From NCBI RefSeq assembly GCF_003751635.1, contig NZ_RJVI01000001.1, positions 536,726 to 600,725 on the forward strand: 64,000 nucleotides of DNA, given 5' to 3'. Every line of letters starts with the position of its first letter. The first letter of the stretch is position 1. The position numbers and the translations under genes are program-made. The notes under the pieces are model-generated. The model worked only from the letters and a program-made list of their open reading frames with translations, had not been told where the DNA came from and did no database searches. Shown here piece by piece: positions 7,251 through 26,930 of the stretch. This DNA comes from Inmirania thermothiophila (GTDB taxonomy: Bacteria; Pseudomonadota; Gammaproteobacteria; DSM-100275).

Positions 7251-9614
7251 ATGAGAGTCTGGCTGCGACGGATCGGGATCGCACTCGGGGTGCTGGTGGT
7301 GCTCTTCGCCGCCGTGCTCGGATACGTGGCGGCGACCTTCGATCCCGACGACTACCGCGACGAGATCGAGGCCGCGGTGGAGGCGCGCACCGGGCGCGCG
7401 CTGCGCATCGGCGGCGGGCTCGAGCTCGAGCTCTTCCCGTGGCTTGCGGTGCGCACGGGGCGGGTGGAGCTTGCCGACGCGCCGGGCTTCGGCGCCGGCC
7501 CCTTCGCCGCCATCGAGCGGGCCGAGGTGCGGGTGCGGCTGCTGCCGCTGCTGCGCCGCGAGCTCGAGGTCGGCCGGGTGCGCGTCGAGGGGCTGAGACT
7601 GCACCTTCGCGTCGACGGCGAGGGCCGCAGCAACTGGGCCGACCTCGCCGGCGGGGGCGGTGCGGCCGAGGGGGCGGGCGGCGGCGAGGCGGCGCCGGCC
7701 CTCGCCCTGGCGGTGGCCGGGCTCGAGGTCCGCGACGCCCGCATCGAGTACGTGGACGAGCAGGCCGGCCACGGCCTGACCCTGGGCGGGCTCGAACTCG
7801 AGACCGGGCCCCTGCGTCCCGGGGCGGCGGTGCCGGTGCGGCTGCGCACCGGGATCGAGGCCGAGCCCGCGGGCCTGCAGGGCCGCCTCGAGGTGGGCGG
7901 CGAGGTGACGGTGGACGAGGCGCTGCAGGGGCTGCGGGTGCGCGGCCTCGACCTGCGGCTGCACGCGGCGGGTGCGGGGCTGCCGGATGCGGGGGTGGAT
8001 CTGGGCGTGCGCGGCGACCTCGCCGCGGACGGCGCCGCCGGACGGCTCGTGGCCGAGGGGCTGGAGCTCGAGCTCCCCGGGCTGCTGCTTGCGGGACGGG
8101 CCGAGGCGGCGGCGCCGGCGCGGGCCGAGGTGGTGCTCGACAGCCGGCGACTGGCCCCGGCGGAGCTGCTCGCCGCGTTGGGGATCGCCGCCCCCCTGCC
8201 CGCCGGCTCACCGCTCCTTGCCCAGGGCGAGCTCGGCCTCACGGCGCGCCTCGAGGGCGCCCGGCTCGAGGTGCCGCGGCTCGCGGCGGCGCTGGGGCCC
8301 GTGCGCATGCAGGCGCGTGGGACGGTGCCGGATCTTGCCGCCGGCGCCTTCGAGGGGCGGGTGGAGATCGCGCCCTTCTCGCCGCGGGCGGTCCTCGGCG
8401 CGGCGGGCGTGGAGGTGCCGGAGACGGCGGATCCGGCGGTCCTCGGCGAGGCGGCGCTGCGCACGGCCCTGCGCGGCGATGCCGCCGGCATCGAGCTGCA
8501 CGAGCTCGCCCTGCGCCTCGACCAGACCCGGGTGCAGGGCCGGCTGGCGGTGGAAGGGCTGGCGCGGACCCCGCCGGCGCTTCGCTTCGATCTCGAGGTC
8601 GACGCCGTCGATCTCGACCGCTATCTCCCGCCGCAGGCCGCCGAGACCGCGCCGCCGAGCCCGGGCACCGCCGCCGTCGGCACCGCGGCGCTGCCCCTGG
8701 AGATGCTGCGCGCGCTGCAGGCCGATGGCCGCGTGCGCATCGGGCGGCTCAAGGCCTTCGGGATCCGTTCCGAGGCGGTCTCCATCCGGATCGCGGCCGG
8801 CGACGGCCTCCTCCGCCTGGGCCCCAATGCGGCCCTTCTCTACGGCGGCCGCTACGCCGGCGACGTGCAGCTCGACGTGCGCGGCGACGCGCCGGTCTGG
8901 CAGGCCCGCGAGACCCTCACCGACGTGGATGTCGGCGCCCTCCTGCGCGACGCCATGGGCGAGGAGCGGCTGCAGGGCCGGGCCGAGGTGGCGCTGGCGC
9001 TGGCCGCCGAGGGGGCCGATCCGGTGGGCCTGCGGCGCACGGTGGACGGCACCGCCCGCTTCGTCTTCCGCGACGGCCTCGTGCGAGGGGTCAACATCGC
9101 GCAGCTGATCCGCGAGGCCCGCGCCCGTCTCGAGGGCAGGCCGGTGCCGAAGGCGGAGGGGCCGGCCGAGACGGACTTCACCGAGCTTGCCGGCAGCGCG
9201 GTGATCCGCGACGGGATCCTGCGCAACGACGATCTCCGCGCCCGCTCCCCGCTGCTCCGGGTGGCCGGTGCAGGCACCGTGGATCTGCCGGGCGAGCGCC
9301 TCGACTATCTGCTGCGGGTCAAGCTGGTGGGCACCCTGGAGGGCCAGGGCGGGGCGGACCTCGCCGCGCTCAAGGGGCTCGAGATCCCGTTGCGGATCCG
9401 GGGACCCTGGGCCGGGCCGTCGTTCAGCGTGGAGCTCGATAAGGTCCTCGCGGGCAAGGCCAAGGCGCGGCTCGAGGCCGAGGAGGCGAAGGCGCGGGCC
9501 CGCCTCGAGGCCGAGAAGGCCGAGGCGCGGCAGCGGCTCGAGGAGAAGAAGCGGGCCGTGGAGGAGGAGACCCGGCGCAAGCTCGAGGACAAGCTCAAGG
9601 GCCTGCTGCGATGA
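7251..9614 (+). CDS. asmA: AsmA family protein
   Basis: This 787-residue inner-membrane protein has one N-terminal anchor (about 8-28) and a long periplasmic body. The AsmA N-terminal domain starts FDPDDYRDEIEAAVEARTGR and continues through GGLELELFPWLAVRTG and PGFG. The C-terminal AsmA_2-type region is near 590-725, and a charged helical tail (about 735-785) is rich in KARLEAE repeats and should form a coiled coil. AsmA-like proteins belong to the bridge-like group implicated in phospholipid transport to the outer membrane. Its stop overlaps the mutY start by 4 bases (ATGA); asmA-mutY is a conserved gammaproteobacterial pair. Confidence 0.9.
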   Translation: MRVWLRRIGIALGVLVVLFAAVLGYVAATFDPDDYRDEIEAAVEARTGRALRIGGGLELELFPWLAVRTGRVELADAPGFGAGPFAAIERAEVRVRLLPLLRRELEVGRVRVEGLRLHLRVDGEGRSNWADLAGGGGAAEGAGGGEAAPALALAVAGLEVRDARIEYVDEQAGHGLTLGGLELETGPLRPGAAVPVRLRTGIEAEPAGLQGRLEVGGEVTVDEALQGLRVRGLDLRLHAAGAGLPDAGVDLGVRGDLAADGAAGRLVAEGLELELPGLLLAGRAEAAAPARAEVVLDSRRLAPAELLAALGIAAPLPAGSPLLAQGELGLTARLEGARLEVPRLAAALGPVRMQARGTVPDLAAGAFEGRVEIAPFSPRAVLGAAGVEVPETADPAVLGEAALRTALRGDAAGIELHELALRLDQTRVQGRLAVEGLARTPPALRFDLEVDAVDLDRYLPPQAAETAPPSPGTAAVGTAALPLEMLRALQADGRVRIGRLKAFGIRSEAVSIRIAAGDGLLRLGPNAALLYGGRYAGDVQLDVRGDAPVWQARETLTDVDVGALLRDAMGEERLQGRAEVALALAAEGADPVGLRRTVDGTARFVFRDGLVRGVNIAQLIREARARLEGRPVPKAEGPAETDFTELAGSAVIRDGILRNDDLRARSPLLRVAGAGTVDLPGERLDYLLRVKLVGTLEGQGGADLAALKGLEIPLRIRGPWAGPSFSVELDKVLAGKAKARLEAEEAKARARLEAEKAEARQRLEEKKRAVEEETRRKLEDKLKGLLR

Positions 9615-25811: not shown

Positions 25812-26180
25812 GTGCGTCCGGGGGAGCGCCCGCGGGGGCTGCGCCGCCTGGTTCTTGCCTTCGGCCATTCGCTGCGCGGGCTTCGCGCGGCGTGGCGCGA
25901 CGAGGAGGCCTTCCAGCTCGAGGTGGCGGCCGCGGTGGTGCTGCTCCCCGCAGCCTTCTGGCTGGGGCGCGACGGGACGGAGCGGGCCCTGCTCGCCGGC
26001 AGCGTCCTGCTGGTGCCGCTGGTGGAGCTGCTCAACAGCGCGGTGGAGGCCACGGTGGATCGCATCGGCACCGAGCACCACCCCCTCGCCGGCCAGGCCA
26101 AGGACCTGGGATCGGCGGCGGTGCTGGTGGCGCTGCTGCTCGCGGCCGCGGTGTGGGCGGCGGTGCTCTGGCCGGCGTGA
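25812..26180 (+). CDS. dgkA: Diacylglycerol kinase
   Basis: This small 122-residue membrane kinase rephosphorylates diacylglycerol to phosphatidic acid. It has three membrane segments and the active-site signature VELLNSAVEATVDRIG with AKDLGSAAV. The AFRDEEAFQLE-like amphipathic helix (here AWRDEEAFQLE, near 30) carries a conserved Glu. It starts at GTG, one base after the gcvPB stop. It ends the operon; the next terminator on this strand is at 26312-26343. Confidence 0.93.
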   Translation: MRPGERPRGLRRLVLAFGHSLRGLRAAWRDEEAFQLEVAAAVVLLPAAFWLGRDGTERALLAGSVLLVPLVELLNSAVEATVDRIGTEHHPLAGQAKDLGSAAVLVALLLAAAVWAAVLWPA

Positions 26181-26193
26181 GAATGCATTTCAA

Positions 26194-26207
26194 TTGACCT
26201 GGATCAT
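26194..26207 (+). promoter_or_regulatory. FNR/Anr-type box
   Basis: TTGACCTGGATCAT matches the FNR-family pattern TTGAT-N4-ATCAA at 8 of 10 conserved positions. It lies in an AT-enriched patch 14 bases past dgkA. Its centre (26200.5) is exactly 41.5 bases before 26242, the first base of the hairpin RNA candidate. A weak -10-like CTCAAT at 26230-26235 is at the matching distance for a class II activated promoter. Confidence 0.55.
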
Positions 26208-26241
26208 GGTCCGCGCCGGCGTTCTGGGGCTCAATGGCACG

Positions 26242-26343
26242 CACCGGAGTGATCCCTTCCCCTCCCCCGATGCTCCGGTGGGCGCCCGCAAGGGCGCCGG
26301 ACGTCACCCCGGGCGGGGGCCTCGCGCCCCCGCCTCTTTTTTT
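26242..26343 (+). ncRNA. Candidate small regulatory RNA, FNR-controlled
   Basis: About 102 bases fold into three consecutive hairpins: an 8-bp stem (26242-26249/26273-26280) extended by two G-U pairs with a 19-base loop rich in C (ATCCCTTCCCCTCCCCCGA); a 7-bp stem with a GCAA tetraloop (26281-26287/26292-26298); and a 9-bp terminator hairpin followed by T7. No protein frame with codon bias is present. The C-rich loop is complementary to Shine-Dalgarno sequences, a common sRNA seed design. An FNR-type box sits 41.5 bases upstream of the inferred start. The whole is new to me; family assignment was not possible. Confidence 0.5.
26312..26343 (+). terminator. Rho-independent terminator
   Basis: The stem GGCGGGGGC/GCCCCCGCC (26312-26320 with 26326-26334) has a 5-base loop and is followed by TC and seven Ts (26337-26343). 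It is the clearest intrinsic terminator in the window. It ends either dgkA read-through or the small RNA. Confidence 0.9.
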
Positions 26344-26426
26344 GCCCGGGCGGCGTCCGGCCCCGCCGAGGGAATAGCGAAGGGCGAAGGGCGTTGACCG
26401 GACAGGCGGACGGCACGGAGGGACCG

Positions 26427-26930
26427 GTGTCCGAGGAGGCGGGGCAGCTCGTCGCCCACATCCCCAGGCTCAGGCGCTACGCGCGGGCCCTGGTGGGCGA
26501 TCCGGAGGCCGCGGACGATCTCGTCCAGGACACCCTGGAGCGGGCGCTGACGCGGCTCAACCGCTTCCGGCCCGGGACCGACCTGCGGGCCTGGCTGTTC
26601 ACGATCATGCACAACCTCTACGTCAGCGCCCTGCGCCGCTACCACCGCCGTCCCCTCCACCACGCCTTCGAGGAGGGACGCGAGGGGGTGCCGGGGGGGC
26701 AGGAGGACAGCCTGCGCCTGGACGAGCTGGAGGCGGCGCTCGCGCGCCTGCCGTCGGCGCAGCGCGAGGTGCTGCTGCTGGTGGTGCTGGAGGGGATGCG
26801 CTACGAGGAGGTGGCGGCGGTGCTGGAGATCCCGCTGGGCACCGTGATGTCGCGCCTGTACCGGGCACGGGAGCGGCTGCGCCGCCTCCTCGAGGGGGGC
26901 GCCGGGCCGCGCCTGCGGAGGGTGAAGTGA
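26427..26930 (+). CDS. ECF-family RNA polymerase sigma factor
   Basis: The 167-residue sigma factor has region 2 (about 10-75, with ADDLVQDTLERALTRLNRF) and region 4 (about 100-158, with LPSAQREVLLLVVLEGMRYEEVAAVLEIPLGTVMSRL). The GTG at 26427 follows GGAGGG by 4-5 bases and is preferred to a TTG at 26394 that has no ribosome site. It is coupled by GTGA to the anti-sigma gene. Region 4 and the DxxR-like pattern place it near the RpoE-like/ECF-with-transmembrane-anti-sigma groups; the regulon is unknown. Confidence 0.9.
   Translation: MSEEAGQLVAHIPRLRRYARALVGDPEAADDLVQDTLERALTRLNRFRPGTDLRAWLFTIMHNLYVSALRRYHRRPLHHAFEEGREGVPGGQEDSLRLDELEAALARLPSAQREVLLLVVLEGMRYEEVAAVLEIPLGTVMSRLYRARERLRRLLEGGAGPRLRRVK

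Follow-up and report, generated by a model that had tools for sequence, protein, structure and literature searches.

A candidate FNR/DNR-controlled small RNA with a C-rich loop between dgkA and an ECF sigma factor gene in Inmirania thermothiophila

In Escherichia coli, the small RNA FnrS is made under oxygen limitation and its activation is FNR-dependent, and in Pseudomonas aeruginosa the gene of the small RNA ErsA is located at polA. AniS/FnrS of Neisseria represents a small RNA made under oxygen limitation as well (PMC4176332). ErsA is activated under reduced oxygen, acts on anaerobic metabolism and raises Anr, the factor inducing it at low oxygen not being known (PMC8575079). Two further systems are characterized by C-rich sequences. 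The highly structured, Hfq-independent RNA sX13 of Xanthomonas uses C-rich apical loops (4C/5C) to repress mRNAs featuring G-rich sites near the start codon; its homologues were found in Xanthomonadaceae only, carry three C-rich loops and always reside after polA, a place also occupied by Spot 42 and alpha-r7 (PMC3771888). In Bacillus and Staphylococcus, C-rich regions of RoxS/RsaE pair with ribosome-binding sites, and the RNA is NO-induced via an O2/NO-sensing two-component system (PMC4409812).

In this study, a locus of Inmirania thermothiophila was compared with these systems. It is located between dgkA and the gene for an ECF sigma factor, within a window of 64,000 nucleotides (the whole stretch of DNA analysed). 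Among the explanations considered, an FNR/DNR-controlled small RNA is the most likely one, followed by a 3' UTR of dgkA. More specifically, the locus is proposed to encode an FNR/DNR-induced, terminator-ended independent small RNA which uses its C-rich loop for pairing with ribosome-binding sites rich in G, a reading to which we attribute about an even chance of being correct. Fnr or an NO-sensing DNR-type paralogue bound at the box would activate a transcription start near 26242, and RNA polymerase would halt at the terminator, yielding an RNA of ~100 nt with three hairpins in tandem. By its C-rich loop, hairpin 1 may then pair with certain mRNAs at G-rich Shine-Dalgarno sequences (GGAGG, GGGAGG) and would thereby block their translation as oxygen falls or denitrification begins.

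Anatomy of the locus and its FNR-type box

All parts of the candidate RNA reside in the intergenic stretch leading from dgkA to the ECF sigma gene (26181-26343); gcvPB, matched by PF21478/PF02347, is located immediately 5' of dgkA. The elements reported in the initial annotation (box, hairpins, terminator and T7) proved to be correct base for base, and the distance of 41.5 bases it had given from the box to the first hairpin is exact, as measured from the box centre at 26200.5 to the start of hairpin 1 (Table 1).

Table 1. Features of the locus and of other C-rich RNA candidates.
Feature	Position	Strand	Basis or remark
dgkA (diacylglycerol kinase), upstream gene	25812..26180	+	PF01219, 120.8 bits
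FNR/DNR-type box TTGACCTGGATCAT	26194..26207	.	sequence; centre 26200.5
Expected -10 place of a class II FNR promoter, CTCAAT, weak	26230..26235	+	
Hairpin 1, C-rich loop, putative seed on G-rich ribosome-binding sites	26242..26280	+	folding
Hairpin 2, 7-bp stem and GCAA tetraloop	26281..26298	+	folding
Intrinsic terminator, 10-bp stem and T7	26311..26343	+	terminator search, folding
Proposed small RNA, ~100 nt	26242..26343	+	anatomy; start inferred from class II spacing
ECF-type promoter-like GGAAT-N16-CGTT	26371..26395	+	pattern match
ECF sigma factor gene, likely start GTG 26427, SD GGAGGG	26427..26930	+	Pfam/NCBIfam, sequence
polA-linked small RNA candidate	C1 ~192.0 kb (L111 ~2655-2810)	+	TATAAA, three hairpins, T6
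Sigma-28-linked family loci	L167-L169, L171, L172, L174-L178, L180, L181, L183, L187, L188, L205-L210, L222; RNA at ~1501 (L181 at 959)		

The stem of hairpin 1 comprises 9-10 bp, and its loop contains an unbroken 16-nt pyrimidine run, TCCCTTCCCCTCCCCC, at 26253-26268. Hairpin 2 reads GGCGCCC-GCAA-GGGCGCC, and the terminator stem (26311-26335) is followed by the T7 tract at 26337-26343. A C-rich apical loop is present in hairpin 1 only, the other two loops being GCAA and CTCGC. The whole candidate RNA was calculated to fold at -58.1 kcal/mol (z -3.4). Hairpins 1 and 2 without the terminator reached -34.0 kcal/mol (z -3.5), a value matched by none of 200 shuffles, and for hairpin 1 by itself z was -2.1.

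The box, TTGAC-CTGG-ATCAT, agrees with TTGAT-N4-ATCAA at eight of ten positions and differs from TTGAYNNNNRTCAA by one mismatch. The genome encodes Fnr (269 bits at a cut-off of 228), featuring the Cys-rich N-terminus CTHCSLRDVC, and three more Crp/Fnr-type proteins scoring well above the Pfam cut-off. Furthermore, the same type of box, in exact form, was identified upstream of ccoN, napF, nosR, norC and nirS. The first three were named by NCBIfam (ccoN and nosR being scanned as partial proteins), and norC and nirS (cytochrome cd1), to which NCBIfam gave no name, were read from sequence. Judged by their sequences, the boxes at the ccoN, nap, nos, nor and nir genes represent a denitrifier's FNR/DNR regulon, and the box of the window is of that type. 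Because Fnr is encoded and the same box type precedes these genes, an FNR/DNR-class site is credible here, and control of the locus by a factor of the FNR class is plausible; a DNR-type regulator sensing NO would read the same box as Fnr. The FNR-type box of the initial annotation was confirmed as such. Its distance to hairpin 1 is that of a class II promoter, but the -10 is weaker than implied, CTCAAT sharing three of six positions with TATAAT at a centre-to-centre spacing of 32. At this spacing, GATAAG (4/6) accompanies the nirS box, and the -10 sequences of the nosR and napF boxes are no better than that of the window. No sigma-70 promoter was recognised by the promoter search upstream of the candidate small RNA.

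A perfect FNR-type box, TTGATCTTTGTCAA, was also observed elsewhere in the genome, just before an apparent CRISPR array (C1:900450; L087 ~1501-1514), as deduced from a regularly spaced repeat and from peptides, among them GPNRALTNKGLR, which recur when all six frames are read. It is possible that CRISPR transcription next to this box is linked to oxygen or NO.

Rarity of the combination and search for relatives

Terminator and hairpin statistics were obtained from the 64-kb window together with 400 kb of flanking contig stretches (~464 kb). Strong intrinsic terminators are scarce in this sample (14 in 936 kb of strand), and the one at this locus is the sole example in which the upstream 110 nt contain a long C-rich hairpin and the upstream 220 nt an FNR box as well. 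Pyrimidine-loop hairpins alone are not commoner than expected under a first-order Markov model (9 in 928 kb of strand vs. 7, 10 and 14 in simulations). The FNR box pattern with at most one mismatch occurs 79 times per genome, compared to 16 times for the reversed control, and a chance of ~0.6% per 220 nt upstream of one terminator follows from the genome-wide rate. From these rates, ~0.015 hairpin-terminator pairs would be expected in the sample, and an FNR box at a rate of ~0.006 per terminator; these values are guides, not p-values, the locus having been picked post hoc. Each element is not striking when taken singly; their combination is rare.

To the 56 relatives compared, all of the same class and none of the same order, a wider set of 369 class genomes was added. 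No DNA homologue of the locus was detected in its own genome, in the 56 or in the 369 class genomes, where only chance matches in coding sequences and weak hits were obtained, and the single-sequence covariance model of the window RNA retrieved no homologue across the 369 genomes. A repeat element, such as REP, was ruled out, the locus being single-copy in the genome. Searching the 369 genomes for an FNR box combined with a C-rich run resulted in 35 occurrences among the matches listed vs. 8 for the reversed control, an excess no larger than that of FNR-type palindromes alone in the genome studied. Apart from the window, none of these listed matches had a terminator behind a C-rich hairpin.

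By score, the top foreign match of the single-sequence model (29.1 bits) was an intergenic RNA in another genome, flanked by genes reading as parC and sodB and conserved among three congeneric species. A joint covariance model led from there to a widespread family, in which CAGAACGGA, a C-rich loop with the sequence CCCCTCCTCCC, and TCCGTTCTG precede a terminator. Family matches at E <= 1e-4 were present in 28 of the 369 class genomes; about 17 of them are strong, and the weaker third of the 28 represents other C-rich hairpin RNAs or terminators. In 14 of the 17 strongest matches (background 0.9%), a promoter of the sigma-28 (FliA) type, TAAAGTTT...GCCGATA, was identified, whose start lies 32-37 nt upstream of the RNA, and compensatory changes were seen in 12 of 18 pairs (RNAalifold on a MAFFT alignment). 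The family has no Rfam match, no description of it was found in the literature searched, and it is apparently undescribed.

Further RNAs consisting of a C-rich-loop hairpin and a terminator, with other stems, were observed at L211/L215 (CGACATGC...GCATGTCG), L214/L216 (GATGACGGTC...GACCGTCAT), L212 and L218; some of them occur in related-genome pairs, and they are devoid of sigma-28 promoters. Another possible small RNA is located at C1 ~650.2 kb on the minus strand (L129 ~9150-9350; also L198), with a promoter-like TTGACC...TAAGAAAATT, then CTCCTCCATCCTCCTTTG and a strong T8 terminator.

Weighing of the competing explanations

Second in rank, and in our estimation somewhat unlikely, is an elaborate 3' UTR of gcvPB-dgkA. 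Transcription would then come from upstream, the box would be a chance match or of minor importance, and the hairpins would shield the mRNA end or be cut out as a 3'-UTR-derived small RNA. The terminator does lie on the same strand as dgkA, 131 nt past its stop codon, the -10 is weak, no sigma-70 promoter is recognisable, and the same genome offers a precedent at C3:1045-1106 (minus strand; L199), where a 3' UTR hairpin (ACCACAA...TTGTGGT, its loop containing CCTCCTCC) directly follows a stop codon and precedes a terminator. However, a box of such quality is expected in only ~0.6% of 220-nt stretches, its centre keeps exactly the class II distance to hairpin 1, and the other terminators inspected in this genome are located far nearer to their stop codons (~25-50 nt) than the one following dgkA, which has two additional hairpins in between. 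A leader or attenuator of the ECF sigma operon, in which the FNR-type promoter would drive the sigma gene and the hairpins together with the terminator would set read-through, appears improbable. The sigma gene is indeed next on the same strand, and its Shine-Dalgarno sequence is complementary to the C-rich loop, but no competing anti-terminator fold is predicted for the candidate RNA, whose minimum-free-energy and centroid structures agree, and an ECF-type promoter-like site of the gene's own is situated between terminator and start codon. This GGAAT-N16-CGTT site, ~30 nt before the sigma gene and one of three matches of its type in the window on both strands, is probably an autoregulated promoter. 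Among homologous proteobacterial sigma genes, a common ECF promoter was not conserved (5 of 79 upstream regions vs. 1.9% background). Because its own promoter-like site is apparent, the ECF gene would need no FNR-type promoter.

That the window RNA is a divergent member of the sigma-28-linked family is very improbable, and this assignment was rejected. The first covariance model of the window caught the family at the edge of significance, and the window scores 50.9 bits in the joint model, whose training set, however, included it. With a window-free model, the score decreased to 23.0 bits, achieved through the terminator alone (3.6 bits for the C-rich hairpin), and unrelated terminators of the same genome score equally (22.1, 22.0 and 21.0 bits). 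Moreover, the stretch 26181-26241 contains no FliA-type promoter TAAAG...CCGAT, the FNR-type box being present instead. Both RNAs place one C-rich-loop hairpin directly before a terminator, whereas the conserved CAGAACGGA/TCCGTTCTG stem and the FliA-type promoter are features of the family. Although not a family member, the window RNA shares an architecture used by conserved RNAs of the class, and a C-rich loop combined with a terminator is a real, recurring small RNA architecture there. Compared to these explanations, a separate RNA is favoured because the terminator is placed 131 nt past the dgkA stop and because the ECF gene has a promoter-like site of its own.

Predicted pairing and comparison with described small RNAs

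By analogy with sX13 and RoxS, the loop of the candidate RNA would act on Shine-Dalgarno regions. A scan of 46 window genes (crude gene calls) gave duplexes of <= -18 kcal/mol in 39% of the start regions, compared to 22% within coding sequences. The loop's complementarity to ribosome sites, pointed out in the initial annotation, is real but generic, as that of any C-rich loop in this genome; it fits any G-rich site and denotes a possibility rather than targets, and the accompanying statement that many transcripts are repressed found no support in the scan. Hfq is encoded in the genome, which permits no inference of Hfq dependence. Rfam 15 contains no family at or above the gathering threshold over the locus (best sub-threshold hit suhB/mmgR, 15.7 vs. 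41 bits). In this respect the RNA may be called undescribed, as had been proposed, whereas its kind, namely small RNAs with C-rich loops and small RNAs linked to oxygen or NO, is well described.

FNR-type activation, known for FnrS/AniS, is only proposed for the window RNA; no FnrS match was detected at the locus by Rfam, and FnrS/AniS are not known to have a 16-nt pyrimidine loop comparable to that of the window RNA. ErsA is likewise linked to oxygen, as proposed for the window RNA, but is located at polA and not at dgkA. The candidate resembles RoxS/RsaE in a C-rich region which would pair with ribosome-binding sites, while these Firmicute RNAs depend on ResD/SrrA instead of FNR and the window RNA has no Rfam match. 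If real, the candidate would place a C-rich loop blocking ribosome sites under an oxygen/NO switch of the FNR class, and this in a Gram-negative denitrifier; in Firmicutes, such a pairing has been described for RoxS/RsaE, where the sensor is a different one.

sX13 resembles the window RNA in its high degree of structure and in having C-rich loop sequence, which in the window RNA would act on G-rich ribosome-binding sites; however, the window RNA has one C-rich loop, the dgkA locus and an FNR-type box, as opposed to three loops and a place after polA. In the genome studied, polA (C1:190.8 kb) is trailed by a C-rich RNA candidate of its own (Table 1), whose three hairpins bear pyrimidine-rich loops read as TATCCCTCCCTTG, TCTCCCCAG and GTTTTCCCCCCCTTTT. 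This RNA would be the natural counterpart of sX13 by position, and the window RNA would be additional to it. It is conceivable, albeit rather doubtful, that in this isolated lineage, which also has the polA-linked C-rich small RNA, an FNR/DNR-induced, sX13-like RNA converts the onset of denitrification into a broad translational down-shift via one anti-Shine-Dalgarno loop. Should the window RNA be real, C-rich-loop regulators would arise repeatedly at separate loci (after polA, after dgkA and under FliA), providing a simple, testable rule for finding small RNAs in GC-rich genomes.
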